Shown here piece by piece: positions 10,494 to 63,562 of a DNA stretch of 64,000 bases. Every line of letters starts with the position of its first letter. Within the stretch, counting starts at the first letter, position 1. The position numbers were made by a program, and so were the translations under genes. Source of the stretch: Forficula auricularia (lineage: Eukaryota > Arthropoda > Insecta > Dermaptera > Forficulidae); contig JALMQS010000816.1 in the NCBI GenBank assembly GCA_024734495.1, positions 8,005,481 to 8,069,480 of the forward strand, in the 5' to 3' direction. The notes under the pieces are model-generated. The model made no database searches, had not been told where the DNA came from, and saw only the letters and a program-made list of their open reading frames with translations.

Positions 10494-10531
10494 CTCAACG
10501 CTTCGCCAATTTATTTAGGCTTCATCAGGTG
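10494..10531 (-). ncRNA. Hammerhead-like motif (degenerate)
   Basis: On the minus strand: CTGATGA, an extra A, stem II GCC/GGC, then GAAGC where GAAAC is expected, followed by GTT. The core is complete except for that one substitution, which should impair catalysis. Helix I pairing is weak. It belongs to the hammerhead-bearing repeats listed elsewhere in the window. Confidence 0.5.
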
Positions 10532-10577
10532 TGTGTAAAAAAGCAAAAAAGAGAGTTTTAGAGAGATTAAATATATA

Positions 10578-10999
10578 TATGTTGCAGAAAAAGCCCGTTT
10601 TTAACAAGAACGTGTTCTTACAAGTTAAAAGGCGTTTCAATGAATACTTTTGTGGCAACTAGAGTTTACTGATGTTGGTTGAGTTTGGTTCAAAGGTCTA
10701 GAATCTTCATTTTTGACCTTGCGTCTCATTTTGAGTGTTTATTTTCAAAAAATTTTAAACGAAAATGTCAAAAATTACATCCTCTACAACTTTGCTTCTA
10801 ATTTTTGACATTTTCGTTTAAAATTTTTTGAAAATAAACACCCTAAATGAGGCCGAAGATCAAAAAATGAAGATTCTAGACCTTTGAACCAAACTCAACC
10901 AACATCAGTAAACTCTAGTTGTCATAAAGGTATTCAGTGGAACGCGTTTTAACTAGTAAGAATGCGTTCTTACTAAAAACGGGCTTTTACTGCGACATA
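10578..10999. mobile_element. Palindromic MITE, family C copy 1 (about 422 bp)
   Basis: The ends read TATGTTGCAG on the left and, inverted, TATGTCGCAGTAAAAGCCCG on the right. The arms are mirrored for most of the length: 'gttcttac', 'actagagtttactgatgttgg' and 'gtctagaatcttcat' all recur inverted. A second copy lies at 11854-12172. No ORF. Ends starting with TA fit a Tc1/mariner-type target but do not prove it. Confidence 0.7.
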
Positions 11000-11853
11000 T
11001 TTATACCAAATAAGTTACCTCATTTTCTCTCTCCTTCACACTCAATTAACAAAGGATATCAGATAAACATACATCAATGATTATAATTTTATTACAAGAC
11101 TATAAAATGATGTGGACATATATCCAAATCAAATCAATTCTTCCTAATTCTTTTCATTACATTCGACCGAGGGATGAACCGCGATTGGAATTTAGCGTAC
11201 AGGTCTTTGGAATTATGAGGAATTATTTTGGAATTCATTAGATAATGCCCCTTCATCTATTGTCTTCTACTTGGAAATGAAGGTGGAAGTGGATGTAGAT
11301 GTACACGATATTAGGTCGCGGTTAACCCCTCGCATTCGACTAATTCTTTCATCGTGAAAATGGTATTTTTTATACTTAGGCAATTTGGTCTTTTCATGTC
11401 CAAAATAGTTGTAAAAACCATTTTTAGGGGTGATCTCATACTAATTAATGATTGACTTATAAAAACTTTTTGAAATTTATTCCTGATGTTTAAAAAGATG
11501 CATGATAATTATTTATTTGTATATAGAATCGATAATTTTACTCGATTAATAGCAACTGAAAGACATTTTTGGAAAAGAAATTAACATGTTATGTGTAGTT
11601 ATGTTATATAAATTATAAAGCAACATTTCTGCATTTAGGCGCTGCAAATTCCTTTATTTGCTCATCCCATTTGTAAGTCCTCGTTAAATCACTATTAATG
11701 GAAAGAACTGATAAATTCGATTTTTCAACATTGTTATACTATATTTGTTTTCTATATACTCCATTTTAATTCGCAATACTGTCCATTGTCTTCATTGGTG
11801 GCTGGGAGGCCTTTATATCCACGGGGCTCAGGGCTGCAGCCCAAAAGCTCGCA

Positions 11854-12172
11854 TATGTTGCAGTAAAACCCGTTTTTAGTAAGAACGGGTTCTTACTAGT
11901 TAAAACGCGTTTCACTGAATACTTTTGTGGCAACTATAATTTACTGATGTTAGTTAAGTTTGGTCCAAAGAATCTTCATTTTTGACCTTCCGCCTCATTT
12001 TGGGTGTTCATTTTTAAAATGAGGGAGAAGGTAAACAATGAAGATTCTAGACCTTTGGACCAAACTCAACTAACATCAGTAAATTCTAGTTGACACAAAG
12101 ATATTCAGTGAAACGCGTTTTAACTAGTAAGAACCCTTCTTACTAAAAAACGGGTTTTTACTGCAATACATA
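11854..12172. mobile_element. Palindromic MITE, family C copy 2 (about 319 bp)
   Basis: Same terminal sequence (TATGTTGCAGTAAAACCCG, inverted at the right end) and the same inner mirrored blocks as the copy at 10578-10999, including 'gaagattctagacctttgg' and 'caaactcaac'. It lacks about 100 bp of the central palindrome. The two copies are less than 1 kb apart in the same region. Confidence 0.7.
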
Positions 12173-12289
12173 GGTATATATCCGCCCCTGCCCTCTCCGG
12201 AATACATCTGGGAATGATAATACCTTTCTTTATTGATTCTACGATTACGTATTAAGCAGCGGTTATCTCGTATTTAAACGAGTGGCAGA

Positions 12290-12665
12290 CCATTATTCTA
12301 TTTGGACGTGACCGGATTACTGCACTTCTTTTCCGATTCGATCCAGGGGGTGACGCCAATTGCTGGTTGGTCATTTGTCCTATTCAACAAGAGAAGTCGC
12401 AGGTTAATTACGCAGGTTGAGATGCCTCGCATGCGTGGGTCGTTAACTCGATCTCCTTTGTCTATCCATCTGATCGACAGGTTTCAGAGCATTTCATTTC
12501 TATCGACGGGTTCCAGGGCATTTCTTTGTCTGAAATTGGCACCTGTCCCGTCGCGTGACTCAGGTTTGCGTGCTACGTTCTACACCCACCATCATCTTAA
12601 GACTTTCGGCCCCGAGACCGGTCTGCAAGCTGATGTCCCCTCTCAGGTGCCCTCACTTCTGTAAT
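12290..12665 (+). other. GC-elevated island with an unrecognised 120-codon ORF
   Basis: This is one of the few stretches in the first 25 kb without AT-rich low complexity. An ATG-initiated frame at 12302-12664 runs uninterrupted for 120 codons. I see no signal peptide, domain motif or resemblance to a known family. No splice sites or promoter are evident. It could be an exon, a relic of an unknown element, or chance in higher-GC DNA. I do not assert that it is a gene. Confidence 0.3.
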
Positions 12666-13145
12666 TTCTTAAACAAATAACTAATCAATAATCCGGAGTT
12701 CGATTCCACCTGCCCACTTGAAGATGGTGATACTCTAAAGAAAGTACATCCATCCTAAGAAGTGATTTATGTTTAGTTAATAATGCATCCGACTTGTCTG
12801 TAAAGAGGTAATCAATAATAAAAGTGATTAGGATAATAAAACGATTAAACTGTAAACTTGATTTGCGAATTTAATAGAGTATTTATCTTGAAATTTTTTC
12901 ACTTCATATTTGCATATTCATGTGGACTGCCCTTCCAATCGTCTATCCTATGCAGTTCAATTCAATGAAATGCTGTATATTCTCTGAATACCTCTAGACA
13001 TTTATAATTTCATTTATGTAAAAAAAAAGTCATAAATTTATATATTTTTAAATGATCGATCATTAAGTAATGACAATTTTGCGATTCAAAATTGATATAC
13101 ACTGAACATCTTTAAAAGTTACAAAAAAAAAAATTGTTCTTTTCT
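12666..13145. other. Non-coding stretch
   Basis: AT-rich and featureless apart from short A-runs. A tRNA T-arm-like string near 12690 is not embedded in a tRNA fold. Confidence 0.5.
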
Positions 13146-13445
13146 CTAAGTTAAAAGTAATCTGACCAAAAACATAAATTTGAAAAAGGGGCAAGTTCGG
13201 TACAAACGACGAGGTTGTTGGCTTTCTCGACATAAGAGTTGAGATCTAAACAAGTACTAAGTTCCATAGGATTTCCTTAAATCCTAGCTATAAAAATGTA
13301 CAACGTTCTTCAATTGATTAAAAAAATTTTGTTACGTTTTTTGATATTAAATTTATAACTGGGCAGGTTATAATAGTCATTAAATTACGTTTAACGTTAT
13401 GATATTTAATACAAGCTTAAAATTTAACTTTGGTTATTCTTTTTA
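13146..13445 (+). repeat. Dispersed repeat, family D copy (related to 61.7 and 63.0 kb)
   Basis: Shared with 61690-62100 and, inverted, with 62870-63045: 'ccaaaaacataaat', 'ggccaagttcggtacaaacg'-type sequence, 'ctaagttccatag' and 'ttcttcaattgat' occur in the same order. This copy lacks the insert carried at 61.75-61.9 kb. No ORF. Confidence 0.65.
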
Positions 13446-14183
13446 TTTTCTCATTTATATTCATAGAAATAATGTGGAAGTATTCCAATGGCCTGTCTGG
13501 GTCCTGTGACTCTTTGAGAGCTTCTATCTCAGAGATGAAAAAAGTTAATATCATTTTGGAACTTCGAGGTGAAAGAAATCGATGCCGTTAATAGTTGAAA
13601 ACCGAATTTAGGACATAAAACCGGAAATTGTGGTCCCCAGGGGCCAAAAAGGGGCCACAAATCCTTTGGCCGGTACTTATGTACGTACCCCCGCCCCCGC
13701 GTTTTGCAACCAGAAATCTCAGAGCTACGAAATTTGAAACTTAAGCTCGATATAATATGCTAGAGTGATAACAGCAAGCTATTGGTTGAAATCAGAACAC
13801 CGGAAGTGGACATTTACATGAAAGATATATTATCTAAAAAACAGCAGTAACGATTCCAAATTGAATTTGACAGAGTTGCCGATAGAAATAGATTTAAATT
13901 TTTGGTTTATTGTAAATTTTATAGTTTATTATATTTAAATTGATTAGTCGAACAGATTCACTCTTAAGTGAGTTGGCTAGTTTACTTTTCCCTCGATTAT
14001 AACTGCAAAATTTACAGAGAGCGTACCGAGATTTGAAAAAGTTTTCACCATTTTCCTTTAAGTAATTTTTATTGAAATTAATATATTAAATTGCAAGTTT
14101 TTTTGCCGAGAGTAGCAGAATTTTTATATATTGAAGGAGACAATAAAAGAGTGTGTCTTCTGCTGGAATTATAAATTTTATTT

Positions 14184-14220
14184 ATATAGTTTCGAGGGCT
14201 TTGGCCTCTTCATCTGTCTA
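14184..14220 (-). ncRNA. Hammerhead motif, left arm of family A copy 1
   Basis: Minus strand: CAGATGA (U4 replaced by A), stem II GAGG/CCTC around CCAAAGC, then an intact GAAAC followed by TATA. The substitution in the CUGA box probably abolishes cleavage. Its partner on the right arm is at 14267-14325. Confidence 0.5.
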
Positions 14221-14266
14221 TTACATTCTGTTCTATTAACATTCATAAATTAATTCCTGTCAATCC

Positions 14267-14325
14267 ATTGTAATAGACTGATGAAGAGGGCAAAGCCCTC
14301 AAAACTATAGTCTCGTAATAAATAA
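14267..14325 (+). ncRNA. Type I hammerhead motif, right arm of family A copy 1
   Basis: CTGATGA, one extra A, a perfect five-pair stem II (GAGGG/CCCTC, loop CAAAG), then AAAAC in place of GAAAC, TATA and the cleavage triplet GTC. Helix I can form between the bases before CTGATGA and those after GTC (GA/TC, a bulged A, then TTGTAAT with GTAATAA, one mismatch). The G12 to A change makes activity doubtful. The fold otherwise fits the family. Confidence 0.6.
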
Positions 14326-14496
14326 ATAAAATTTATAATTCCAGCAGAAGACACACTCTTTTATTGTCTTCTTCAATATCGAAATTAATATATTCGATAA
14401 GCTGAATTAATGTAGCTTAAAAAATATTATAGGTGTCTAAAATTTATTTTCAAAACGTATTATATTAGGATATCAATGCTTTGTAGATTATTTAAT

Positions 14497-14642
14497 ATAA
14501 TTAATTAATATGCAAGGAAGTTAATTATTTGAGCCCTGAGGAAGTCAACAAAGCTGACGAAACGTTGTGAAAAATAAAAATTATTTGCATAAGATATTGT
14601 CTTTATTTCCCTACAACAACTTTATTAATAATTAATTAATAT
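14497..14642 (+). mobile_element. Minimal hammerhead retroposon (116 bp, 15-bp target duplication)
   Basis: The 15-mer ataattaattaatat occurs exactly at 14497-14511 and 14628-14642. The 116-bp insert holds a hammerhead core at 14535-14566 (CTGAGGA, extra A, stem II GTCA/TGAC with a 7-nt loop, GAAAC, GTT) and an AT-rich tail. No inverted duplication is present, so it looks like the simple form of the fold-back elements. The duplication is AT-rich, which tempers confidence, but its length and exactness are notable. Confidence 0.7.
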
Positions 14643-15749: not shown

Positions 15750-16008
15750 TAGAGATTAATTAAAGGAATCGCAAAGAGTTGGACATGACTTTAAATTAAA
15801 TTAAATACAAGTTTTCATTAAATACGCCAAACGTTTCGTTGCTGTTTTGCAACTTCTTCAGTGGCTCATTTATTAAACTTATTTGTCTGGAGTTTTTCAA
15901 GAAGAAGTTGCAAAACAGCAACGAAACGTTTGGCGTATTAATGAAAACTTGTATTTAATTTAATTTAAAGTCATGTCCAACTCCCTACGACTCCTTTAAT
16001 TATTAATC
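15750..16008. mobile_element. Fold-back element with two hammerhead motifs
   Basis: The left arm (about 15750-15842) is repeated inverted at about 15911-16008, including 'aaagagttggacatgac', 'taaatacaagttttcatt' and 'gccaaacgtttcgttgctg'. The inner ends of both arms carry hammerheads pointing outward (minus at 15826-15865; plus at 15905-15940 with a damaged CUGA box). No target duplication was found, unlike the other fold-back retroposons here. Arm identity is high, suggesting a fairly young element. Confidence 0.75.
15826..15865 (-). ncRNA. Type I hammerhead ribozyme, complete by eye
   Basis: Minus strand: GCCA, CTGAAGA, extra A, stem II GTTGC/GCAAC (5 pairs, loop AAAACA), GAAAC, GTT, TGGC. 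Helix I is GCCA with TGGC, a perfect four-pair match flush with the core. The cleavage site would follow GTT. Stem III is only AC/GT, so self-cleavage would most plausibly need a dimer (double hammerhead). An extra A between A9 and stem II is known from a natural viroid hammerhead. Confidence 0.75.
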
Positions 16009-18026: not shown

Positions 18027-18164
18027 CAATTTACAAATTGTCAATAAACATATTGAAAATAATAATAAAACCCATAAAATTAAAAAAATAATCTTATTTC
18101 CTGAGGCTTTGGAGTGCTGGTTTTAAAAATTGCATTGGATAGACGATATCAGCTGTAGTTTTAA

Positions 18165-18668: not shown

Positions 18669-18878
18669 TTATTAAATGTTAAATTGAAAATTGTTGTGCC
18701 GAGAGTAGCAGAATTTTTATATATTGAAGGAGACAATACAAGAGTATGTCTTCTGGTGGAATTATACATTTTATTTATAACGAGACTATAGTCTATAGTT
18801 TCGTTATAAATAAAATTCATAATTCCACTAGAAGACATACATACTCTTTTATTGTCTCCTTCAATTATTAAATGTTAA
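18669..18878 (+). mobile_element. Hammerhead fold-back retroposon, family A copy 2 (182 bp, 14-bp target duplication)
   Basis: ttattaaatgttaa occurs exactly at 18669-18682 and 18865-18878. The insert shares the head (gccgagagtagcagaatttt) and outer arm with the copy at 14.1 kb. The centre is collapsed: the two inverted arms meet within the 3' half of the hammerhead (GAAACTATAG against CTATAGTCTCG), and the CTGATGA box and stem II are missing from both arms. The short minus-strand ORF reading through here is an artefact. Confidence 0.75.
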
Positions 18879-32230: not shown

Positions 32231-32275
32231 ATGGAAAACGTTTCGGCTTTAATTAAATAATGCCATTATCAGTTC
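32231..32275 (-). ncRNA. Hammerhead-like motif in the piggyBac left arm
   Basis: Minus strand: CTGATAA (G8 replaced by A), T, stem II GGC/GCC around an AT-rich loop, GAAAC, GTT. Followed downstream by 'tcccaattatgg'-type sequence similar to the element at 43.7-44.1 kb, so a hammerhead retroposon appears to have landed in the piggyBac arm. Probably inactive. Confidence 0.45.
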
Positions 32276-32720: not shown

Positions 32721-33383
32721 TGGTGATTCAGGAGCGGACCCCCATTCATTTAATGGGCAACTTCGTTGCCAAGTTTGTTCTTCTTTTATAGGATGATTAA
32801 AGCCTTCCACGGTTGGCAGCCTGGAGACTGGCTCTGAGACGTTGCTAATCTCAGGTCCGCTGCCAGTCAGCCTCAGAGGCGACAATTTGCTCAGGCAGTA
32901 GAGAAGGAGCTGAAGTCTTGAGCAGACCTGCGGACCGCCTACGCAATACTCTCTACTTTCGCCATCTTTCGCTTGCTTTCTTTCACTCAGCCTTCATCTT
33001 CTTTCAGAGCTTATCGAAGCGATTCATAATTACATTTTTTATATATATATTTTATATAACTTCTACCTTGAAAGGTCAGGAATTATCCTTGCCAGCAAGT
33101 ATTCTTTTCTTAATATTTTATTACAAGATATTTTCTTTTAAAAAATATCTCATATTTTTTACATCTAATTTATTTTAACTATATTAAACGTGCCTGGCAG
33201 GTTTAACCCTTGAACCATATTTTCTATTTTATATTTATATTTTTAATTATTTTTTCTATGAATAAATAGTTTTTTTAACTTAATTATTTTTTCTTCAACC
33301 CAGAGTGTTCATAGCCATTTACACCTGACCAATTTAGATTATAGGGCTCTCTTAAAGTCACATAAAGCCCTTAAATCCCAACA
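32721..33383 (+). repeat. 5' LTR
   Basis: 663 bp, matching 37625-38291 almost base for base from 'attcatttaatgggcaactt' to 'cttaaatcccaaca'. The first bases differ (TGGTGATTC against TGTAATGATAT). A TATA-rich stretch (atatatatattttatataac) near 33040 and AATAAA-like sequence near 33260 are candidates for promoter and polyadenylation signals. The 86-codon ORF at 32918-33178 is repeated in the other LTR and is not thought to be a gene. Confidence 0.88.
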
Positions 33384-33408: not shown

Positions 33409-33564
33409 AGGCCCTAAGGAGGGTGAAGGGTATAATTGAGTGAGAGAAAGTCTTTTGTTTTTCGTTTAATTTTTATTTTTTTAGTGAATTTTTTCATTAA
33501 ATTTTCCTTGAGAAAAGAAATTAATTCTTTTTAATTTTTTTAGAGAACCATCAGACTTTTTACA

Positions 33565-34665
33565 ATGCCAGGAGACACAGAATTAATAGAAGGTCAGGAA
33601 CCATTGGCGCATTCCACCAGGTTGGAAATACAAGCCGAACCAATCAACCAGGCACAGATAGCAACGGCCACTGCTGAATTCCCAAGCCTTTCATCAGATA
33701 GCGGTCCGGGAGTGCAGCCGCAGACACCGGTGAGTACTGCACCGTTTGACATGGCGCAAATGATGGCACTAATAGAGAGAATGAACGAGAGACAGATGGA
33801 ACAAATGGGAGAATTGAATAGAATGAGTAGAGACAATAAGGAACAAATGGGAGAAATGCGCAGGGACATGGGCAGTAACAGTAGAGAAATAAAAGGTGAT
33901 CTTGGTGGTAAAATGGATAGCGTCAAAGAGGAAATAAATGATAGAATGGATAGAGTAGCAGGTAACAATAGGGAATTAAATTATAAAATAGACGGGATGA
34001 ATCAGAGCATTCATGATAAAATTGAGGGCGTGAACAGGAAAATAGAGGAAATTATTAGGAAAATGGACGACCGGTGTATAAGGCTGGGTATAAGGATAAG
34101 GGAGCATGCCGTAACGGCAATCGAAATAGGCACATCTGGGGAAATATGGGAAACCACAGATGAAATCATTATAGAAAGCCCAAGAATAGAGACGGCGGTT
34201 GCAGTCTGTGACCAGGATGGGTTACAAATGTTCCAGGATGAAGTAGAAGTATTCTACACCGAATTTCACCATCCTGAAGTAATCCAAAATCCCCCAGCTG
34301 AAAAACTGGTTAAATTCCCCTTAGAGTTTGTAGAGGTAAAACCCCCTATCAAGTATCAAAAACAAGGATTGAGGGAGATCCTTGAGCTGGTCCGGGGCGA
34401 GATACTTTTAATTAGTAAAGTAGTTGAGCCCGGAAGATCAAACAAATCGTTTGTAGCTCACGGTATTAAATTTACCGTGCTAACAAAATTCGACAAACTT
34501 TCGCAATCCCTATATCATAAATTCTTTTTGCAATACGTAGTGCCCTTCCGCGTGGCAGAAATATGCCCCGGGGGCACCGATGTATTAGAAGCTATCCATG
34601 GTAAGAAGCATGGTGTGTTCAATACTCGGTTATTGAAACGGTTTTATAATAGCCCGGAACAGTGA
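33565..34665 (+). CDS. Gag-like / truncated Pol fusion ORF of the LTR element
   Basis: 366 codons starting at ATG 33565, 181 bp after the primer site. Residues about 62-172 are rich in Met, Glu, Asp, Arg and Asn with heptad-like spacing (MAQMMALIERMNERQMEQMG, then repeated KIDGM/KIEGV units) and probably form a coiled coil, as in insect retrotransposon Gag proteins. The C-terminus (residues about 305-366: LSQSLYHKFFLQY, PFRVAEI, VFNTRLLKRFY) matches the SH3/chromo-like tail at the end of gypsy-type Pol, just after integrase. The middle is unassigned. Protease, RT, RNase H and integrase core are absent, so an in-frame deletion seems to have fused the ends. No zinc knuckle is visible. Any encoded product would be a structural Gag derivative; function unproven. 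Confidence 0.75.
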   Translation: MPGDTELIEGQEPLAHSTRLEIQAEPINQAQIATATAEFPSLSSDSGPGVQPQTPVSTAPFDMAQMMALIERMNERQMEQMGELNRMSRDNKEQMGEMRRDMGSNSREIKGDLGGKMDSVKEEINDRMDRVAGNNRELNYKIDGMNQSIHDKIEGVNRKIEEIIRKMDDRCIRLGIRIREHAVTAIEIGTSGEIWETTDEIIIESPRIETAVAVCDQDGLQMFQDEVEVFYTEFHHPEVIQNPPAEKLVKFPLEFVEVKPPIKYQKQGLREILELVRGEILLISKVVEPGRSNKSFVAHGIKFTVLTKFDKLSQSLYHKFFLQYVVPFRVAEICPGGTDVLEAIHGKKHGVFNTRLLKRFYNSPEQ

Positions 34666-37624
34666 TTAAAAAAGCTAATCACAAACTATGTGTTAATTCC
34701 ACATAGGGGCTTGTTCCAGTTGAATTCTATCTCTTAATTTTCCCCCCTCACCTTTTAGTTCTTTTCATATTTTTTCCTTTTATTTTATTATTTTTTGTTG
34801 TAAATAGTTGTATATTTTTTTGTAAATTTTTTTGTAAATTTTCTTATTAATTTATTTCATTAAATTTCTTATCAAAATGAGAAAATTTCATTGGTCTGTC
34901 TGTCTATTCAGTAAATTATTTAAGTCCGTCGGGAAGTCCAATCATTTTTTTATTATGAAACAAAGAAATTCTTTCTTTTGCTAAAGTCGTTTTGTCTTAA
35001 TTAAAGTAATTTTTCTTAAAATTGTCATTTAATTAGAGTAATAATTGTTGCATTTAAAATCAATTAAGTTTTTTTATCTAATCTTGAAATAGTTCGAAAA
35101 TAAAATTTAAAATCTGTCTGTCATTAAATTATTAAAATCATTGAAATTCCGCTAAATAATTTTGTCAATTAAGTCCGATAAGTCTTCTTAATTATTTTTT
35201 TGATTAAATTTGAAATCATTTAATAGTAATTATTATCGCTAATAGATCATTAGCATCGATTAATTAGAGAGGCAAATCTATAGATAAAAAGATAATCCTT
35301 AATCCTCTCTCTCTTAATCGTTTTGTAAATTCAATTTAAATTGATTATTAGTTCAATTTGATTTGATTTGGCGTTAATTATTTAAAAACACAATCTATTT
35401 TTAAAATGATTTTGTTTGTTTTTTTTAGTCTGTCGGTCTGTCTAAAATGAAATTTCTTGTCTTTTTATTTTTTTATTAAATAATAATTATTTGCTACCTG
35501 GTCTGGCAAATCAGTTATTTGCTATTGACTTTGATTAAGCAGAAAAATAGCGATTCGGTGTGTAAACCCCCCCCCCCCCCCCACCAATCTTCAGCAATGA
35601 GATTTGCAAAGAGTAATTCTAGTTACTGTCAACCACTCTCATATTTGAACCGGCGTTTTGTTCACGCTTGAAGCCATTTATTTCTTTATTGTCCTTGGGT
35701 TCAGAGTCTCCTATACATTTTTCTCTCTGCTCTTTCTCATTGGAATCAATTATAATTAGCATTTATTTTTTTGGTATTAATGCGAATAAATCATAACACG
35801 GACCCACTAGGTTATTTTCTGATGATAAAATTTATTGGTTATTTTTTTATATATATAAATATTATCCAACCTTTGGCCATTGCCTAAGTTCAATGTCGAG
35901 TTTTTTTACTGACCCTATTATGTCGCAATTACTCGAACTTAAATGGAATTTTAAATTTTCTTATTCAGAAATTACTATTAGGAAAATTTATTTTTTTACC
36001 GTTATTCTTTGCGATCATTCTCTATGATCTATTAATAGGTGAACTCTGTTCCTTAATTTGTAACAGGAAGGTCCTTTATTCGGTATTTTCTATCGATAGA
36101 ATTTTTTTATGGTTAGTTTATTCACCATTCTCTCTGACCTTTGAGTTTTTTTATTCTATTACCTGTAATAGTAACCTGATTTTTTTATCAATAAAGTTTG
36201 TTTACATCCTATGGGCAATTTTTTAGTTCTCTAAGTGCCAAAAACCGATTGCCTGTCAAAAGTGAGTGCAAGGTCTGGGCCCTATCTGGAGAATTGTTTT
36301 GTTGCCTAGTGGCTTGTTGTGGTCTGTGACTGGTTTGTATGTTTGTTATAATGGTAAAATGTAAAGCCCTTGAGGCCCATTGAATTGTTTTTGTGAGAAG
36401 ACCTTAAGCGCCGATGGTCGCGAATAATTATTTTTTTAATTATTGTTTTATTTTATTTTTTAGTTTTTTTATATATTCTTATATGAATGTCTAAGCCGCG
36501 TAAAAAACGCGTGAGAGTATCGTGATGATGGTCGGCGGTCTGGTCGAGGACTCAGAGGAAGAATGCCCTGAGGATCCTTGTCGGCTGGACCTAAGTAGTA
36601 TAATGTTGCAGTTGCCCAAACATTAATTTTTTTGTTAATTTAATTTTTTTATTTTTCAGTCAAAGCCAATTTTGGTCCCTTCGTAAAAATGTAGAGAAAC
36701 ATTGGGGGCTCATGCTGTGTGTCTGATGTGGACGTGGCTGGACTTTGAAGCCAGTTCTGACGGACCTACCTCTGCGGTCGTCTGTCACAGGCTTATGTTG
36801 GATTGTGAGATTTTTTGTATTAATTTCCCCCCCCCTTTTTTGAATTAATTACTGTGTGGCAGGTTTAATGGGCGGCTAAGTCCGCGGGGCATAGACCCAT
36901 GTTTTTCTTGAGGAATGAGCCGACGGCTACCCACCGATGCAATTTCCGGACAATTGGGAGCGGGCCATTCACTCTAAGAAGTGAGCCAGGCTGTGTGCCT
37001 GATGGTAGTAGTTTGTAGAGGAATGAGCCGACGGTGACCCGCCGAGGCAATTCCCGGACAATCGGGCACGGGCCATTCCCTCTATGTGTTGAGCCGGGCT
37101 GTGTGCCCGATGTATTGTAAGTTTCTTAAGAATTGGGTTGGATGGAAGACGTTGGGGTTGGCCACCACGGGGTCTGAAACGGCTGCCCAGCATCCCCTCC
37201 GGCTCCCATTTAACCGCGACTTGTTCAGAGGACAGCTAGTAACCGCTTTGAAGGTTTCAGAGGCCTCAAGGTAGGACAAAGCGCTCTGAACAGTCATTAA
37301 ATTTCCCCTTGTAAGCAAATAATCTCTCACTCCCACGTTACAGCCGTGGCGGTGCGCTCGCCTTGGTTTGTCCCGATGTTACTGGAAGATCAGGAAAGCT
37401 TCGTTCCTGTCTGACACCCAGACATGGACATCCAATGCCTATGCATTTATTTGTTTATTTTTTTATTTTTATACTTTAATTGTAATTCTAGCATCAGTAC
37501 AGTAAATTCATGGTAACAGTATACTGTGCGGGTGCTGGCCGATGATGTTCGGTCCTGGAGTCAGAGGCATTAAACTTGTCACCTTCTTAAGTGGTTCCAA
37601 TTTTAATGTTTCTGGCCGGGGGGA
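34666..37624 (+). other. Long non-coding 3' internal region of the LTR element
   Basis: About 3 kb between the ORF stop and the 3' LTR without a credible gene. The first half is AT-rich with T-runs and 'gtctgtctgtc'-like phrases. A C16 run lies at 35567-35582. The second half (36500-37440) is GC-richer. No env-like ORF or membrane-anchored frame was recognised. Short frames on both strands at 36865-37336 are not convincing. Confidence 0.6.
36913..37128 (+). repeat. Imperfect tandem duplication, 108-bp period
   Basis: 'gaatgagccgacgg' at 36913 and 37021 start two units. Each continues with 'gcaatttccggacaat' (or ttcccggacaat), 'cgggccatt' and 'ctgtgtgcc(t/c)gatg'. A shorter phrase, 'gctgtgtgtctgatg', lies upstream at 36711. 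Part of the LTR element interior. Confidence 0.7.
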
Positions 37625-38291
37625 TGTAATGATATAAGGGGCAGACCCCCCCCATTCATTTAATGGGCAACTTCGTTGCCAAGTTTGTTCTTCTTTTATA
37701 GGATGATTAAAGCCTTCCACGGTTGGCAGCCTGGAGACTGGCTCTGAGCGTTGCTAATCTCAGGTCCGCTGCCAGTCAGCCTAGAGGCGACAATTTGCTC
37801 AGGCAGTAGAGAAGGAGCTGAAGTCTTGAGCAGACCTGCGGACCGCCTACGCAATACTCTCTACTTTCGCCATCTTTCGCTTGCTTTCTTTCACTCAGCC
37901 TTCATCTTCTTTCAGAGCTTATCGAAGCGATTCATAATTACATTTTTTATATATATATTTTATATAACTTCTACCTTGAAAGGTCAGGAATTATCCTTGC
38001 CAGCAAGTATTCTTTTCTTAATATTTTATTACAAGATATTTTCTTTTAAAAAATATCTCATATTTTTTACATCTAATTTATTTTAACTATATTAAACGTG
38101 CCTGGCAGGTTTAACCCTTGAACCATATTTTCTATTTTATATTTATATTTTTAATTATTTTTTCTATGAATAAATAGTTTTTTTAACTTAATTATTTTTT
38201 CTTCAACCCAGAGTGTTCATAGCCATTTACACCTGACCAATTTAGATTATAGGGCTCTCCTAAAGACGCATAAAGTCCTTAAATCCCAACA
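37625..38291 (+). repeat. 3' LTR
   Basis: 667 bp, starting TGTAATGAT after the purine tract gggggga and ending CCCAACA before the target duplication ATAC. It differs from the 5' LTR by a few substitutions and small indels (for example a C-run of 8 instead of 5 near 37645, and agcgttg for agacgttg). Confidence 0.88.
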
Positions 38292-42255: not shown

Positions 42256-42524
42256 TACTTAATTAGGCAATAATCAGACACGTAATCTAGAATTTAAGTT
42301 TTATTAATTATGACTAAAAAATAAAGTAACGAGAAAATTATTTGTTTGTTTTTTTTTTCAAAACTTTATTCTAATTTATTTGCACGAAATTTTCTCTGGA
42401 GAGAGACGGACTGGTAGAACTTTTAACTGAAAGTAATGGAAGGCAGTTCAGGGGAACCCACGGAAAGTAAAAATTAACACATGTCGAAATAAAGTGTAAT
42501 TTATTGGAATCCTTCCACCTTTCC

Positions 42525-42575
42525 CTTCAAACCGACGTTTCGGAGGATTCTTCCCTCCTTCTTCAGGGTTTCAAG
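42525..42575 (-). ncRNA. Type I hammerhead ribozyme, complete by eye
   Basis: Minus strand: CTTGAAACC, CTGAAGA, extra A, stem II GGAGG/CCTCC (5 pairs, loop of 7), GAAAC, GTC, GGTTTGAAG. Helix I pairs CTTGAAACC with GGTTTGAAG (8 of 9). The core is consensus and the cleavage triplet is the canonical GTC. Stem III is the minimal AC/GT, so a dimeric form is likely. It is one of the best candidates in the window. Confidence 0.8.
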
Positions 42576-43650
42576 GGGTCAATGAAGGAAACAAATAAAA
42601 TGCTTCCTTCCTCTCTCCGCAGCAGTGTATAAAACTTTTTTCTTCCTTAGCAGAAGCATAGAAAAACAATTTTTTCCCTTCTTTTTCTTAATTAATATTT
42701 TTTTAGTTTTTAAAATTTCACAAAAACGACTTGATTTATTTTAATAAATGTGTGCGAACACGAGTACCTATACTAGGTCTACAAAAATATAATTTTTGAA
42801 AATTATTTTTTATGAGACATTAATTATTTTTAACAAAGTTTATTATATTTTAAATAACATAAAGAAATCAAAGTGAAAAATCGTCTAACATGCATTCTAT
42901 AATGAGAATACATCCCTTGTAGGAAATGAGAAACAAATGCTGCCTCGTTTTTTTGAACTCTATATGGTGAATATACAATCATACTTGAAAGATAAAAAGT
43001 AAACCAGTTTTAGGTATTTTACATAGATGAAATAATTGCTTCCATTGAGGTCATTTATTAGTACCATATCTTAAGGGCTAGACATCTGCCGGTCCAGTTT
43101 CGTAGTTAAGTGGCCTTTGATCCTCCCTGGGCTTCTCAGTCCAGTCGATTATCATTTTCTTAGACGGATCTGATTAGCTCGTATCCAGTCTTCACCTGTG
43201 TCGACAGTTTGGTCAGAGCGGTGCCCATTAGGGCTTCGAATTCGGAACCCTCACTCCTAATGATGCAATATTGTTTTGTAAATTATAATCTTTCATGTTT
43301 CATAATATTTATTTAAACATTAATCAAACAAGTTATTAATCTACATTTTACAAGGTTGAGTCAGAGACATATGGCTGAGGAAATCAGCAAGACTTTTTTT
43401 AATTAATCTCTGATTCCCAATTTACACCTCCTCCACATTGACGATCTCATCCCAGTCTTTAATCTTGTTTCTCTTTTAATGTAACGATTGATTGTATTTG
43501 CTTCCTACTCTATTTTAATTATATTTTAAGCCGATTTCATGTGAGGTTAAAATATTATGTTCAATAGCTATTGAAAGATCAAGTTAGGATTTATTTATTC
43601 ATTTTTTCAACGGATAATAGTCTCAATTTACAAAATTGTAAAATTATAAC
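42576..43650. other. Non-coding stretch
   Basis: A GC-richer patch at 43070-43260 has no convincing reading frame. The rest is AT-rich. Confidence 0.45.
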
Positions 43651-43755
43651 CCTACAATACTCATGTTGTTAGCGTTCGTGTCTGTGATGAAACTGTATTA
43701 GATGAAGGAGGAGGTATTAGCCAAATTTGGATTCGCTGAGTTCAATAAAACACTC

Positions 43756-43804
43756 TGAATAAAACGTTCCGGCCTAAATTTATTTGGCCATCTTCAGTTA
43801 ATTG
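43756..43804 (-). ncRNA. Hammerhead motif, left arm
   Basis: Minus strand: CTGAAGA, extra T, stem II GGCC/GGCC around an AT-rich loop, GGAAC in place of GAAAC, GTT. Helix I is short (about three pairs). The one core substitution may reduce activity. Confidence 0.55.
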
Positions 43805-43992
43805 GGAGTTATACACAAAATGGGGAACACATATGTGATCGAACCAAAACTTAAAAATAAAAATGGTAGCTTCATGTAAATGTATAACGTGTCTGCGCCC
43901 CACGTTATAAATTTACATGAAGCAACCATTTTTATTTTTGTGAAGTCTTGGTACGATCAAATATGTGTACCGCATTTTGTGTATAACTCCCA

Positions 43993-44036
43993 ATTAACTT
44001 GAAGATCGCCAAATAAATCAGGCCGAAAATGCTTAT
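43993..44036 (+). ncRNA. Hammerhead motif, right arm (decayed)
   Basis: Plus strand: CTTGAAGA, stem II with one mismatch (CGCC against GGCC), GAAAA, then TGC. It mirrors the left-arm motif but has lost the GAAAC and GTH boxes. Confidence 0.4.
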
Positions 44037-44163
44037 TATTCAGGGTGTTTTATTGAACCCAACCATCCAACTTTTGGCTGATATCTCCTCCTTCATCTAC
44101 TACAATACTCATTACATACATCAACATCATATATTACATAATTATACATCAGCATTACATTAA

Positions 44164-45949: not shown

Positions 45950-45996
45950 CATAATTTGAAGAAGGAGGAAAAAAGGCTCCGAAACGTCTGCTTATG
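45950..45996 (+). ncRNA. Hammerhead motif inside the hAT MITE
   Basis: TTGAAGA (C3 replaced by T), stem II GGAG/CTCC, GAAAC, GTC. Downstream 'gaataaaaaagat', continuing beyond the 46.0-kb insertion with 'cttttttt' and 'ttggattgtctcatc', matches the flank of the 56.1-kb hammerhead, so both belong to one subfamily. Confidence 0.55.
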
Positions 45997-46299
45997 AATA
46001 AAAAAGATAAATTAAAAGTTTCTTTTTGCCGAGAGTAGCAGATTTTTATAAATTGAAGGAGACAATAAAAGAGCGTGTCTTCTGCTGGAATTATACATTT
46101 TTAATTTATTTATAATGAGACTATAGTTCCGAGATCTTTGTCCTCTTCATCAGTCTATTACAAATGATTCACAGGAATTAATATATGTAAGTGGGTAAAG
46201 GCAAAGGTCTCGAAACTAAAGTCTCGTTATAAATAAATTAAAAAATTTATAATTCCAGCAGAAGACACACTCTTTTGTTGTCTCCTTCAATAAAAAGAT
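45997..46299 (+). mobile_element. Hammerhead fold-back retroposon, family A copy 3 (about 280 bp)
   Basis: Flanked by aataaaaaagat (45997-46008) and aataaaaagat (46289-46299), an 11-bp duplication with one A-run length difference. The head (tttttgccgagagtagcag) and arms ('cttctgctggaattatac' mirrored by 'ataattccagcagaagacac') match the copies at 14.1 and 18.7 kb. The left arm carries the best-preserved hammerhead of the family (46108-46165). Confidence 0.75.
46108..46165 (-). ncRNA. Type I hammerhead ribozyme with extended helix I
   Basis: Minus strand: ATTTGTAAT, bulged A, GA, CTGATGA, extra A, stem II GAG/CTC, GGAAC, TATA, GTC, TC, ATTATAAAT. Helix I forms 11 pairs (one G-U) with a single bulge. 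Stem III is AC/GT with a TATA loop. The only departure from the core consensus is GGAAC for GAAAC. Confidence 0.7.
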
Positions 46300-46654
46300 C
46301 TTTTTTTGAATTTTGGATTGTCTCATCAATATCCACTCAATAATTTATTAGACAATTATTAAATATAATAAATGGATCTGCTTGTTTCTTATTAAATAAA
46401 TAGTCAAATAGGAGCTCATCATCTTGATTTTGATTTTATAATCGCCAATGCTGAAAACGTCGCTTCACATAAATAATTAAACATATCTAATACAAAATGT
46501 CAATTTCACAAAAATTCAATGATCAATAATAATATACTTAGAATTCACTAAATATTAATTTTTGGCCGTTGACCATTATAATTTTTTCATTGTCATTGTT
46601 ACCCTATGTTTTAAATGGGGCGCGACCCATAGTTTAAAAAGCACTGCTCTACAA

Positions 46655-53454: not shown

Positions 53455-54450
53455 ATTTATTATTTTTTTATTTTTTATTTTTTTTATGAAAATGATGAGA
53501 GAAGGAGTTACACCAAAAAGGTGCAACCCCTAAAGGCCTGGGTTGGCCCCTCCATCGTGAAAAAGAAGAAGAAATGAATTTTATGGGCTGGGCGAGGGTC
53601 GAAGGTATCGTGGATACGGGTCTTAAATAGCTGAAGGTTATAAGTCACGGGAAAGATGGTGGCAGGGTGCGAGTTCCAGTCTCTGGAGGTCATAGGGATA
53701 AAAGAGTTGGCGAAAGCGCTTGTTCGACTTTTATCCAATTTGACAGCGAAGGGTTGCTGAGCGTTCGAAAACCGCGTGTTTCTCGTAAAGAGGGCTTTAG
53801 GGGGGATAATTGATTTCAGCTCGACTGAACAGACACCGTGATAGTATCTGTAGTACAGGGAAAGGGCAGAAACGGTTCTTCGGAGAGCCAGGGAGTCGAG
53901 TGAGTTGGTTAGAGCCGGGTCTCCTATTAGTTTAATTGCTCGCTTCTGAATCGCATCCAGTGTAGCAAGAGAATGCTTGGAGGCACGCCTCCACAGATGA
54001 GAGCCATATTCGAGACAGGGACGAATTTGAGCCTTATACAGTATAAGAAGTTGACTGGGAGTATAACAGCGTCTAGACCCAAATAGGAGACCAAGCTTGC
54101 GCGCTGCAGCTTTAGCAGTGGTTGAGATATGGTCATTCCATGAAAGGTCAGACCCTAGAGTTGCGTCTAGCATTGAAATTTTATCCCTGAATTCTAGTGA
54201 GTTTGAGTCGAATGATATGTTTGGGAGGTTTCTGTCGACGCGCCTAAAAATAAGGCAACACTGAGTTTTCACTGCATTGAAGTTAATTAAGTTTTGGGAT
54301 CCCCAGTTTTTAAGTTTGCATAAGTCTAAATTAATTGAGGAGGCAATGTCTGCACGGTTTTTATGCGATGCAGGGGCGTTGTGTACGAGTGCTGTCATCT
54401 GCGTAACAATGTACCGGATTGGAGGAGCAAGTAATTATTTATCTCGAAAT
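53455..54450 (-). mobile_element. 5'-truncated jockey/CR1-like non-LTR retrotransposon
   Basis: The element reads on the minus strand from about 54450 to an A-rich tail at about 53455-53486. It holds the ORF 53508-54398 and the tail of the RT catalytic box. Similarity stops just upstream of the YADD motif, the expected result of incomplete reverse transcription. The final coding bases contain 'ggttgcacctttttggtgta', a phrase also found (as gttgtaccttcttggtgcaa) near 61870, so a second 3' fragment of a related element may lie there. Confidence 0.75.
53508..54398 (-). pseudogene. Reverse transcriptase C-terminal region of the jockey/CR1-like element
   Basis: A 296-codon frame. Residues 14-60 read KNRADIASSINLDL, LKNWGSQNLINFNAVKTQCC. 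Residues 80-150 read SDLSWNDHI, AKAAARKLGLLF, LLILYKAQIRPCLEYGSHLW. Later come LDAIQKRAIKLIGDP and LYYRYYHG. This is the conserved post-catalytic (thumb and connection) region of jockey/CR1-type RTs. The catalytic YADDS sits immediately upstream in a different frame (about 54398-54415), so a one-base change separates it. The N-terminal endonuclease and fingers/palm are missing. It cannot encode an active enzyme. Confidence 0.82.
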
Positions 54451-56092: not shown

Positions 56093-56142
56093 TTCAAAAC
56101 CCTGAAGAAGGGGCTATAAACCTCCGAAACGTCGGCTTTGAA
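56093..56142 (+). ncRNA. Type I hammerhead ribozyme, complete by eye
   Basis: TTCAAAACC, CTGAAGA, extra A, stem II GGGG/CTCC (one G-U, loop of 8), GAAAC, GTC, GGCTTTGAA. Helix I pairs 8 of 9. The downstream A-rich stretch and 'ccttggactgccccac' match the flank of the 45.97-kb motif. Not part of a fold-back here. Confidence 0.78.
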
Positions 56143-57740: not shown

Positions 57741-57759
57741 TGTATACAAAGATCGTTTT

Positions 57760-58790: not shown

Positions 58791-60100
58791 TCATAAAGTA
58801 ACTTTTTCTTTTTTTCAAATTTATTTAAATTCCATTGATAAAGGGAGAAACTCTCCCGAAAATTTGGTATTTTAGTAAAGGTTTGAAGATTGTTTTTTAT
58901 AAAGATTTATATTTATTTATATATCAATATAGTTTTTCTATATAATAGTTCATCTATCTCAAGTATCCAAATTCTTTAAGATGAAAGGAGTAATCCATTA
59001 AGAAAACAAATGAATGTGTGGAGACCCTCTCCACTGCTGCGCTCAAGGTAACTTTATTGAGATAACAACTTGTTCTTGAAAATCGTGGAGTTCCATCAAT
59101 GTCTGTCTTCCCTTTAAAGTCTATCTAGTAGAGAAGCCGCAAATAGAAAAATGTATAGCTTAAGAGACAATTCCAAGGCTTCTAGCCAAGGGGGTTATCT
59201 CAAGTGTCCCCCATCACAATGGCTACTTAGAGGGGTCTTAATGGACCTGTAGCTCATTGCTACGCGCAGATCGCTGATCTGCAGACGGTGGGAAGGATGC
59301 CCGAGGCCCCAAGTCTTTACTGACGGCGATTAATTGCTTGTTTAAGTCACCACAACTGCTTTTTCAATCCAACGCAAAAACTAACATTAATACTATATAT
59401 ATTAAAAATATAAATATATTTTTTTAATATATTTTATGTTTAACAGAGAGGATAGTAAAATCTTTTTATTTAATTGAACAGTTAGCTATCATTCAAACAT
59501 AAAGAATAATAATCTTAAGTTCAATTAAATTGAAAGTAATTGATAAATATTGAAAAAAATTCTATTACAGGAAAATAATTCTCGAGATCTCTTATTAAAT
59601 CATTAATTAATCTTTCTGGTTTAAAGTTAATGAAATAAGCATTATTTATAGAATTACTAATAAAAGTTCTTTATTTACGAGATGTTCAATAAGCTACAAT
59701 CACAATTAAATAAAATAAAAAATAAATATTTAAATAGGTACAAATAAAGACTTTTTGCCTTTTATTTGTGAATCCTACATAGAAATTTATATTTTAAATT
59801 TTTTATTTACTTCATCATACAGGGGTATGGTCAAGTATTGTAATAGAGTGCATGAAAAATTGGTTATTTTGCTTAGTTTTTTTCGAAATATCTCAAATAT
59901 GGCTAAAATTATTTTGAATAAAAAAATTGGGCAAAACCATGGCATTTTAATCTACAAAAAAGTCCTAATAAGTGATTATCGAAAAAAATATATATTTTTC
60001 GAGATAATAACAGTTTTGTCAAAATGTCTGTTAGTACGTTAGTGCGCTACCAAATTTTTGTGGACGCACTAGCTCAAAAAGTAATGTGAATATCAAAACG
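58791..60100. other. Non-coding stretch
   Basis: Mostly AT-rich. 59030-59350 is GC-richer ('gatctgcagacggtgggaag', 'cccgaggccccaagtc') without a reading frame or RNA fold that I recognise. The ORF at 59755-60042 has no recognisable domain. Confidence 0.45.
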
Positions 60101-60169
60101 AAATTTCACATGTAGTTTTGGTGCATTGAGATTAAGAACTGATTAGATTTCGGTTGAAATCAATCACAA

Positions 60170-60900
60170 AACTAAGGGGGAGAGGGGTAAAAATTAAAAT
60201 TATAATTTTTTTAAGCTAAAAAAAACTAGAAATATGAAGTATACCATAAAATGAACCTATACTAAAAAAAAAGAGTTATTATTTTTTCTGGGGCCAAATT
60301 TGGGGGGGGGGGTTTATAAAATATTTATACTATCAATATAAGTTTTAGAGCCTTTTATGGAAGACGAAAATTTGCACATGAACCCTATATACGACCTTGT
60401 GAAAATTAATCGCTATGGGAAATTGTGGGGGGGGGGGGGGGGGATATTTTGAGAATGCTCTAGTAGCACAATGTTTCAAACTATATAGTAACTATATAGT
60501 GTCTATATAGCCCCTATATATTTGCTATGTAGTTTGAAACATTGTGCTACTAGGGTGTTAATATATTCCTAGATATGGAAATCGACCCCAAAATTAAGGG
60601 GGAAAGGGGTCAAAATTAAAATTATAAGTTTTTAAATTTAAAAAAAAAAACTAGAAAAAATTAAATATACGATAAAATGAACCTATGCTAAAAAAAGAGT
60701 TACTATTTTTTTCTGAAGCCAAAATTAGGGGTTCAAAAAATATTATCCTATCAATATAAGTTTTAGAGCCTTTAATGGAAGTCGAAATTTTGTACATGAA
60801 CCCTATATACGACCTTATGAAAATTACTCGATATGTGAAATTGGGGGGGGGGGGGGGTCAAAAATATTTTCAAACAAAAATCGAAGAAATGTGATATTTC
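60170..60900. repeat. Two direct repeat units (about 420 bp) with long poly-G tracts
   Basis: 'aaaattaaaattataa', 'aaaatgaacctat', 'aagttttagagcctttNatgg' and 'catgaaccctatatacgacc' occur in the same order in both units. Each unit ends in a G-run: G17 at 60427-60443 and G15 at 60843-60857, with G11 at 60302-60312. The first unit carries the 94-bp palindrome at 60460-60553. The sequence leads into the repeat shared with 110-290. Confidence 0.75.
60460..60553. repeat. 94-bp perfect-ended palindrome
   Basis: Begins CTAGTAGCACAATGTTTCAA and ends with its exact inverse. The centre has 'tatatag' repeats. It is present in only one of the two surrounding direct repeat units, so it looks like a small insertion. 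No duplication is evident. Confidence 0.65.
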
Positions 60901-61080
60901 TAATAAAATAGTCATATAATTAAAAGCAGATATTATTAATTTCTAATGGGTCCAAACTTAAGAGGGAAGGGGGTTCTTTCGTAAATAATTATAAATTATT
61001 TTAATTCAATATTAAATATAAGAAAGAGGACCCAGGTGTATGGTAAAGTCATTTGGATGGCCACATCAGTTTATTTATTT
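60895..61080. repeat. Dispersed repeat, copy 2 (first copy at 110-290)
   Basis: Aligns with the window start from 'tttctaataaaat' to 'gtatggtaaagtcat' and 'ggatggccacatca'. It immediately follows the poly-G repeat units, which may be part of the same larger element. Confidence 0.6.
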
Positions 61081-61689
61081 TATTAATATGTTTCATCTAG
61101 AACCCGCACCATTCTCCCTTAACAAAATTCATAATTAAATGATTATTTTTGCAATCATTATAAAATATTCATTAGTTAACTTGATCATAGAACAGCAATT
61201 TATAAACATTTTTTATCTATATATCGTAATTGTTTTAATTTTATTTCAGTTAAAATATTTTTTTTAAAGTATTTTAGTAATTAAATTAATTAAAAGAAGA
61301 AAACATCGAAAAAGTTAAATAAATCATAACAAATAGGAAGCGAAAGATTGCATTTGATCACTGCTAATGTTAATTATAGGAAAATCAAAATTGCTGGAAG
61401 CGGCTTGCCGTAAGCTAAAAGAACGATTGATTAACATATAAATTCTGCCAGTGCGGTAGTAATTTATCGTGGCATGTCATCAATTGTGGACTAATACATG
61501 AACGGTTGGAGATTTGTACGCACGGACAGCACAGGAGGCGCTTAGCACGGATGACAGACCGTTAGAAGCAAAGATCCACGCCTCGTGCCTGGTCATTAGC
61601 TAGATTCTCAGCTAACAGTCCCTAGTGGGAACTGCGTGGGAAATTTAGGTATTCGATTGGCACTAAAGAACTGAATAATTATTATCAAA
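61081..61689. other. Non-coding stretch
   Basis: AT-rich, with a GC-richer patch at 61500-61650. No feature recognised. Confidence 0.45.
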
Positions 61690-63045
61690 TAACTTGATTT
61701 GTCCAAAAACATAAATGTGAAAAAAGGGCCAAGTTCGGTACAAACGCCTTTGTCGACAAAAGATCAATCTTTCAAAGACCAGCATCCACAGATACCTTCG
61801 GCTGCTATCCAATCCCTAAATCTCCCCTTATCTTCACGTTACAAGGGTCCACCACGGACTACAGAGGTTGTACCTTCTTGGTGCAACTTCTTCTTGTATC
61901 AATATCATTATAAAAGAGTTGATATCTAATCAGGTACTAAGTTCCATAGCAGTTGCTTAAATCATAGCTATAGGGATGTTCAACGTTCTTCAATTGATTT
62001 AAAAGAAAATTTGTTACGTTCTTTGATGAACTTGGAAAGTTATAATAGTCAATAACTGATGATATTTAATACAAGTTTAAAATTTAGCTTTTCTAGTTGT
62101 TCTATTTTATTAACCGACTTCAAAAAAGGAGGAGGTTCTCTATTCGACTGAATTTTTTTTTGTGTCTATGTTACCTCATATCTCCGCCAATTGAGAACCG
62201 AATTTGAAAAATTTGTTTGCATTGGGTTCAGTCTACCTTCCGATTGGCCCCATTTTTTTTCATTGGTATTAGACCTTTTTTGTTAGCTTTGTTCAGGCCT
62301 AACTTCTTTGTTTATTAACCGATTTCGATGTTTCTTTTTTATTGGAAAGGGGGTATCTTAGGGATCGTGCCATATTAATTTGGTCAAGTTCTGATGATAT
62401 GATCACGATTAATAATATCACTAAAAGAGAAAATAAAAATAATTTTTAAGAAAAAATAAAACCGACTTCAAAAAGTTAAATGCAACAAATAAAATACCAT
62501 AAAAGATATAAAATAATTATTATCTTATTTAGTTACAACTAAACGACGAAATATTAACATGAAATTACTTTCTGAAGTCGGTGCCAAACAAACTATACCT
62601 ATAAGCGAGCGTACCTGCCAAACATACTAAGTAAGATCCGTCGAGTGCGAATCATAAAAGGTATATTGTTTGGCACCGACTTCAAAAAGTAATTCCATGT
62701 TAATATTTCGTCGTTTAGATGTATATATAAATGATAATATTTTATTACTTTTATATTTTATTTGTTGCATTTAATCATTTTGAAATCGGTTTTATTTTTT
62801 CTTAAAAATTATACTACAAACAATTTAGTTGGATATAAAACTTGCCAAGTTATAAATTATATATCAAAGAACATAACAAATTTACTTTTAAATCAATTGA
62901 AGATCGTTGTTCATCCCTTTAGCTTTGATTTAAGCAACTGCTATGGAACTTAGTATCAGTTTAGATATCAACTCTTTTGACGGAGTAGCCGTTTGTACCG
63001 AACTTGGCCCTTTTTCACATTTATGTTTTTGGACAGATATCATTA
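61690..63045. mobile_element. Fold-back element, family D, with a nested ACCGACTTC repeat
   Basis: The left arm ('ccaaaaacataaatgtgaaa', 'ggccaagttcggtacaaacg', 'agagttgatatcta', 'actaagttccatagcagttg', 'ttcttcaattgatttaaaag') is mirrored at about 62870-63045. The left arm additionally holds about 170 bp (61750-61910) containing a probable non-LTR 3' end ('gttgtaccttcttggtgcaa'). The ORF at 61699-61929 runs through this junction and is not considered a gene. The loop is filled by the ACCGACTTC element. Confidence 0.75.
62110..62812 (+). mobile_element. ACCGACTTC repeat, copy 4
   Basis: Starts 'ttaaccgacttcaaaaaagg' and ends 'ggttttattttttcttaaaa'. Both modules are present, the palindromic one at about 62460-62800. 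Nested in the loop of the family D fold-back. Confidence 0.7.
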
Positions 63046-63095
63046 ATTTTTGCAAAGTTTTATCGTTTAATTTATCTAAATAATTACATATAAAC

Positions 63096-63562
63096 ATTTA
63101 TATTAATAGAGTATTTTAGTGTTTAGGAGTGAGAAATTAATATAATTTATCTTTTTATGATTAGCTCCTTCGTATTAATAATAGAAAATTTTGAAATGGA
63201 TAAATAAAATTTAATAAATGTTCATGTTGAATTATTTATTATTGTAAATTACTAGTTTCACCATTGTTTGGCTCATCAGACCTATTTACATTTTTTGTTT
63301 ATAATTTTTTTTTGGTTGAACAATACATTTCACTGGGAAATCACAGATAACATATCACAATAGATCAGTTTTTATTCATTCATGACGGACCAGTTCCAGA
63401 AAGAATACATTCGACGAGAGACAGTCCAAGAGAAACTAGTAACTTACAATAATAAATAATTCAACATGAACATTTATTAAATTTCATTTATCCATTTCAA
63501 AATTTTCTATTATTAATACGAAGGAGCTAAACATAAAAAGATAAATTATATTTATATTAATA
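63096..63562 (+). mobile_element. Hammerhead fold-back retroposon (441 bp, 13-bp target duplication)
   Basis: atttatattaata occurs exactly at 63096-63108 and 63550-63562. The insert has a short head (gagtattttagtgtttagga). Next comes a left arm of about 125 bp ('gctccttcgtattaataata', 'aatgttcatgttgaattatt') ending in a complete minus-strand hammerhead. After a loop of about 150 bp comes the inverted arm, which keeps only the 3' half of the hammerhead (GAAACTAGTA). Same plan as the elements at 14.1 and 43.7 kb. Confidence 0.82.
63243..63290 (-). ncRNA. Type I hammerhead ribozyme, full consensus core
   Basis: Minus strand: TGTAAAT, AGGT, CTGATGA, stem II GCCA/TGGT (loop AACAA), GAAAC, TA, GTA, ATTTACA. 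Helix I has seven perfect pairs (TGTAAAT with ATTTACA) with the AGGT bases on one side. Stem III is AC/GT with a two-base loop. There is no extra base after A9. This is the closest match to textbook hammerheads in the window. Confidence 0.82.

Follow-up and report, generated by a model that had tools for sequence, protein, structure and literature searches.

The DNA stretch analysed here (hereafter the window) comprises 64,000 nucleotides of contig JALMQS010000816.1 from the insect Forficula auricularia. It is AT-rich, has only eight open reading frames (ORFs) of at least 110 amino acids, and harbors a cluster of hammerhead ribozyme motifs carried largely by short insertions that very probably derive from Penelope-like elements (PLEs). 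A sequence-only reading had listed about fifteen sites at which CTGANGA, a short stem II and GAAAC, or one-base variants, are followed by GTH. Motifs are indeed found at these places, but they are not of comparable quality. Direct reading of each site gave an exact core at five of them (14.55, 15.85, 42.55, 56.1 and 63.27 kb) and a single core change at six (10.5, 14.3, 32.25, 43.78, 45.97 and 46.14 kb), whereas the core is broken at the other four (14.2, 15.92, 24.85 and 44.0 kb). In addition, the fifteen sites are not independent, because four pairs represent the two arms of single insertions, namely 14.2/14.3, 15.85/15.92, 43.78/44.0, and 46.14 together with a broken partner near 46.2 kb that had not been listed.

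Within these 64 kb, to which all motif counts refer, the motifs clearly exceed chance expectation, as the sequence-only reading had claimed; the comparison with shuffled sequence that it had proposed was made with motif descriptors. The plain core (CTGANGA, 6 to 30 nt, GAAAC) occurs five times (14536+, 15833-, 42537-, 56102+ and 63255-), whereas shuffled sequence yields 0.52 on average and none of 100 shuffles reached five. A strict descriptor, composed of CTGANGA, 0-1 nt, a stem II of at least three Watson-Crick pairs and GAAACGTH, was compared with 60 dinucleotide block shuffles. It matched three sites with an exact core (shuffle mean 0.00) and seven sites with at most one core mismatch (mean 0.05, maximum 1); with two mismatches the excess is weaker (eight versus 0.73, shuffle maximum 4). 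The 56.1 kb site is left out of the strict count because one of its stem II pairs is G-U, although its core is exact. In all seven strict-descriptor sites, exactly one base separates A9 from stem II.

Chance motifs in AT-rich DNA would account for about 0.5 plain cores per window, and the four broken sites fit such an origin. It is extremely unlikely as a general explanation, given the structure-requiring count of seven versus 0.05 and the stem II covariation described below. Moreover, a pattern in the style of family A (see the table) is present twice in the window, and in a prokaryote collection of 257 billion bases it matched 31 stretches, eight of them with a stem II, which we take as chance matches in a rough comparison, the base compositions being different. 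Chance is thus rejected for the core set, whereas the most degenerate sites, that at 10.5 kb among them, may still be chance motifs. According to PMC7761336, minimal type I hammerheads, usually devoid of helix III, occur by thousands in many metazoan genomes, and some of them map to the pseudo-long terminal repeats (pLTRs) of PLEs; the density that the sequence-only reading had called unusual is unusual against chance, but motifs of this kind are widespread in animals. Altogether, the hammerhead cluster is real and of an already known kind.

Further analysis of 12 tabulated sites addressed the folding of the motifs. The covariation test used one site per family, which left eight of the 12. Beyond its first pair, stem II is Watson-Crick paired at 22 of 24 positions in these eight groups, compared to a mean of 8.2 after permutation of the 3' strands (P 0.0002). 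Stem II opens with a G-C pair in 11 of the 12 sites and with G-T at 63.27 kb. Pairing was counted directly, because the MAFFT alignment displaced the ACTATAGT site at 14.3 kb by one column. Helix I was tested against random positions of the same window, which also served as controls for the target duplications below. Thirteen entries were submitted and 12 scored, as the 44.0 kb site could not be placed; the P values given are uncorrected for the 12 tests. A clear helix I exists at 15.85 and 42.55 kb (P 0.0007 each) and at 56.1 kb (P 0.006), and a borderline one at 32.25 and 63.27 kb (P 0.06), so that the earlier count of at least five sites with a complementary helix I is not supported. Unconstrained minimum-energy folds of the 42.55 and 15.85 kb motifs contain helix I and stem II with the core left open; at 56.1 kb even the monomer slightly prefers another minimum-energy fold.

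The sequence-only reading had also pointed to one extra A or T between A9 and stem II, which is present in 11 of the 12 sites (9 A and 2 T) and absent at 63.27 kb. At 43.78 and 32.25 kb, the extra T, flanked by A9 and the G that opens stem II, completes an ATG, and by analogy with a lizard element discussed below, the position of a start codon may be a plain reason for the extra base at these two sites. Helix III is self-complementary at 10 of the 12 sites, with seven ACGT, two ACTATAGT (14.3 and 46.14 kb) and one ACTAGT (63.27 kb); at the ACGT sites H17 lies directly next to it, and the palindrome is lost at 10.5 and 14.2 kb. The three ACTATAGT and ACTAGT sites are more telling than the ACGT sites, because the search pattern favored ACGT, and these three were found free of that bias. 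According to PMC6466107, which counts Penelope-like retrotransposons among its examples, double hammerheads require a palindrome in the stem III loop and, in eukaryotes, a tandem arrangement. The window copies have the palindrome, but no tandem pair of motifs was found in the window, where copies are single or inverted; hence we call them relics. They are probably inert, given the lack of tandem copies and the changes in most cores. RNA cofolding of eight sites paired helix III only at 63.27 and 14.3 kb, a result invalid as a test of the double hammerhead, because an intermolecular helix III combined with an intramolecular helix I forms a pseudoknot.

A covariance search with Rfam, also proposed by the sequence-only reading, reported no hammerhead at the gathering score, at E values up to 10 in the whole window, or in 42480-42620 alone. 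A control on viral contigs qualifies this negative. A scan that required the extra base, and thus carries no information on the frequency of that base, retrieved 67 loci with 68 motifs, 21 of which have a stem II of at least three pairs. In 15 of these 21 (11 distinct sequences), stem III and helix I are formed as well, with G-U pairs allowed. These three-stem hammerheads, with an extra T after A9, come from loci L003, L019, L023, L027, L031, L032, L034, L036, L039, L041, L043, L054, L059, L060 and L061, and demonstrate that complete hammerheads with an extra base exist outside this window. Rfam at its gathering score found no hammerhead in 12 viral-contig loci, seven of which pair in all three stems; L019, with three paired stems, received only an out-of-register type II match of 16.2 bits against a cutoff of 37. 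As complete viral-contig hammerheads with an extra base are also missed, the Rfam negative marks a blind spot, is weak evidence and was not used to exclude hammerheads. The motifs of the window are real ribozyme motifs that Rfam models left unreported and unaided reading of the sequence found. Rfam also listed microRNA precursor models at 14192-14302, 15822-15938 and 43832-43963, all below their cutoffs; the best such match in the palindromic insertions is MIR6288 (54.1 bits, cutoff 74). These matches most likely arise only from the long hairpins.

The carriers of the hammerheads present a characteristic anatomy. Six head-to-head inverted pairs, at 14.1-14.4, 15.8-16.0, 18.7-18.9, 43.7-44.1, 46.0-46.3 and 63.1-63.6 kb, have aligned arms that are 88-97% identical, and in all six the hammerhead lies within or at the start of the arms; direct tandem pairs were not found. 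Similarity search with their arms assigned the pairs at 14.1-14.4, 18.7-18.9 and 46.0-46.3 kb to one family (B). A one-sided tail of about 33-43 nt extends four of the six pairs (all three of family B and the one at 63 kb), and target duplications of 13-15 bp flank four of the seven insertions tested. The insertions end 61-141 nt past the predicted cut. These inverted pairs, one-sided tails and target duplications bear out PLEs as the likely carriers, and the differences among the groups support several subfamilies rather than one satellite, both as the sequence-only reading had suggested. Pattern scans for relatives, of family A in genome contigs and of family B in viral contigs, returned none in either case.

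Table. Hammerhead motifs and carrier insertions in the window (tails and target duplications as measured; P values from random positions of the window).
Feature	Coordinates	Strand	Details
Family A minimal hammerhead	42534..42566	-	Exact core, extra A, ACGT helix III, long helix I
Family A minimal hammerhead	56102..56133	+	Exact core, extra A, one G-U pair in stem II; 83% identity over 71 nt to the 42.55 kb copy
Family A hammerhead	45956..45988	+	C3 changed to T
Family B head-to-head inverted insertion with target duplication	14074..14394		Arms 14225-14128 and 14269-14379; left tail ~40 nt; 14-bp target duplication 14074-14087/14381-14394, P 0.01
Hammerhead of the above, broken	14183..14216	-	
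Hammerhead of the above	14278..14312	+	
Family B inverted insertion	18669..18878		5' half of hammerhead missing; shared arms begin at the helix III palindrome (18791 and 18793); tail of ~40 nt on the left; target duplication of 14 bp, 18669-18682/18865-18878, 0/300 controls
Family B inverted insertion	45997..46301		Arms 46140-46040 and 46202-46301; hammerhead 46119-46153 (-); left tail ~43 nt; target duplication weak, P 0.10
Family C inverted insertion	15757..16002		Intact hammerhead 15830-15861 (-), 5'-truncated copy from 15901 (+); target duplication borderline, P 0.05
Family D inverted insertion	43679..44120		Hammerhead 43763-43797 (-), extra T, GGAA; broken copy ~44.0 kb (+); no target duplication, P 0.54
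Family F inverted insertion	63096..63562		Arms 63259-63136 and 63432-63555; hammerhead 63250-63279 (-), ACTAGT helix III, no extra base; left tail ~33 nt; 13-bp target duplication, 0/300 controls
Single short insertion, 116 nt (14512-14627)	14497..14642	+	Hammerhead 14536-14566; 15-bp target duplication, P 0.003
Single hammerhead	32237..32272	-	G8 changed to A, extra T, 4-bp helix I (borderline)
Degenerate hammerhead	10497..10528	-	GAAG, helix III palindrome lost, no helix I

Two other kinds of mobile element were weighed as carriers. Animal non-LTR (long terminal repeat) retrozymes, which the sequence-only reading had named beside PLEs, bear type I hammerheads, are small and non-autonomous, and spread via circular RNAs. 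As described in PMC7229834, they resemble the window copies in being short, low-GC, non-coding repeats with type I hammerheads, and may rely on the machinery of PLEs; those of amphibians have a weak helix III and act better as dimers. However, the animal retrozymes of that account are tandem repeats of 150-450 bp, whereas the motif copies here are single or inverted and none of the 26 tandem-repeat rows of the window covers a motif, which leaves a retrozyme origin very unlikely. Fold-back DNA transposons, or ones resembling miniature inverted-repeat transposable elements, could hold the motif in their inverted arms by descent or chance. The six insertions are inverted repeats in a window with 46 inverted-repeat pairs, and the nearly equal arms of families C and D, which lack a clear target duplication, would suit such transposons. 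Against them stand the one-sided tail in four pairs, the target duplications of 13-15 bp and the single, non-inverted 14.5 kb copy with its 15-bp duplication; in addition, groups dissimilar in sequence have the same covarying ribozyme core. We consider this origin highly improbable.

We therefore favor, with a probability of roughly 0.85, the interpretation that the motifs are minimal dimer-type type I hammerheads located close to the 5' ends of short insertions, most of them inverted head to head, that several PLE families left behind. In such a family, the element would be transcribed as a tandem, in which two hammerhead copies could pair through their self-complementary helix III of the ACGU type and cleave after GUH, perhaps with assistance from the PLE protein. 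The PLE enzyme would nick AT-rich DNA, and cDNA synthesis would begin about 60-140 nt downstream of the ribozyme and stop early; a second copy would be joined head to head, and the target duplication of 13-15 bp would arise.

Several points weigh against this interpretation. A short-pattern scan of the window, together with a Pfam search of four of the eight ORFs of at least 110 amino acids, recognised no PLE reverse transcriptase (RT) or GIY-YIG frame. The scan gave three isolated one-mismatch matches (one RT5 and two RT6), which were discounted because no other domain motif was found near them, and Pfam assigned no retroelement family to the four ORFs, three being without matches and one having weak matches below the cutoff. 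As neither frame was recognised, PLE membership rests on anatomy. Helix III does not by itself decide for PLEs, since amphibian retrozymes, in the account cited above, also have a weak one. Helix I is unsupported at the remaining seven of the 12 scored sites (P 0.13 or more). The brackets of the target duplications were placed after the sequences had been seen, which makes their P values optimistic, and families C and D show neither a convincing target duplication nor a one-sided tail. 

The inversion junctions deserve separate consideration. In the six pairs, the shared arms start upstream of the predicted cut, by 44, 8, 22, 30, 117 and 10 nt, and in none exactly at it; in the single 14.5 kb copy, the inserted sequence starts 55 nt upstream. 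An origin of the insertions at the ribozyme cut itself is accordingly rejected for all six pairs and this copy. Five of the six pairs start inside the ribozyme or just before it, and the arms at 18.79 kb meet at the helix III palindrome. This junction pattern is biased, as five of the six pairs were noticed through their hammerheads; in family B, the junction feature is common to all three copies found by similarity. One tentative and rather unlikely possibility is that the hammerhead fold, together with its self-complementary helix III, acts as a turn-around point of PLE reverse transcription, where the cDNA would stop, within the hammerhead or slightly upstream of it, and re-prime to give head-to-head inversions. 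This would agree with the uncleaved RNA that served as in vitro template for the Anolis element in PMC11167929. If true, the hammerhead would take part in cDNA synthesis as well as in RNA cleavage. What PLE hammerheads do is described as a mystery in PMC7761336, and the junction pattern raises the question whether the ribozyme shapes cDNA ends in addition to RNA ends.

Other repeats are found around these insertions. At 45956-46301, the family B inverted relic directly follows a family A hammerhead, probably as a nested insertion. Two related inverted-repeat elements occupy 10572-12180, and the hammerhead-like relic at 10.5 kb lies just outside them. Direct repeats at 32739-33174 and 37649-38082, 4.9 kb apart and identical in two listed blocks (300 and 100 nt), enclose an ORF of 373 amino acids (33544-34665) and are perhaps the ends of a recent LTR retrotransposon; inside this putative element, a 108-bp tandem repeat of 1.9 copies with 59% GC extends over 36910-37112. 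On the minus strand, 53508-54434 encodes the end of a LINE-like (long interspersed nuclear element) ORF of 308 amino acids with 86 relatives (12 with an RVT_1 domain), mostly on short ENA contigs.

Compared with known systems, the window provides a worked anatomy of small PLE-like insertions. Lunse, Weinberg and Breaker reportedly named dimer cleavage in the title of their 2017 paper. De la Pena and Flores are said to have described in 2001 a viroid hammerhead with an extra core nucleotide, located after A9; it shares the one extra core base with the window motifs, but belongs to a viroid. Insertions of 1-2 nucleotides beside CUGAnGA occur in known alignments (PMC10085705). Minimal PLE hammerheads have already been published (PMC7761336, PMC11167929), and those of Cervera and de la Pena 2014 and Lunse et al. 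2017 reportedly share with the window motifs the type I order, a missing or palindromic helix III and many dispersed animal copies; no clear difference from the window motifs emerges. Within the window, the extra base is absent at 63.27 kb.

A close counterpart for the ribozyme itself is the Poseidon element PAc of Anolis carolinensis (PMC11167929), whose hammerhead lies where pLTR and ORF meet, the start codon coinciding with the beginning of stem II. The ATG at 43.78 and 32.25 kb occupies the same place. In the Anolis PLE, the cut falls 26 bp into the ORF and reverse transcription starts 111-118 bp in, that is, 85-92 nt past the cut, and the window insertions end similarly far past theirs. 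They differ in that no ORF was recognised for the window copies, and nine of the 12 sites have A instead of T and hence no ATG at this position. For the insertions as a whole, 5' truncation is described for Penelope in PMC8969392, and a tail of 30-40 bp for Penelope of D. virilis in PMC11167929. Penelope of Adineta vaga (PMC3846280) has direct and inverted pLTRs, one inverted pLTR being optionally extended by a 31 bp tail, as well as 8-10 bp target duplications and palindromes at its inversion junctions. The duplications in the window are longer (13-15 bp), and no coding region was recognised there; nevertheless, both share head-to-head pLTRs, a one-sided tail, target duplications and palindromes at the junctions.

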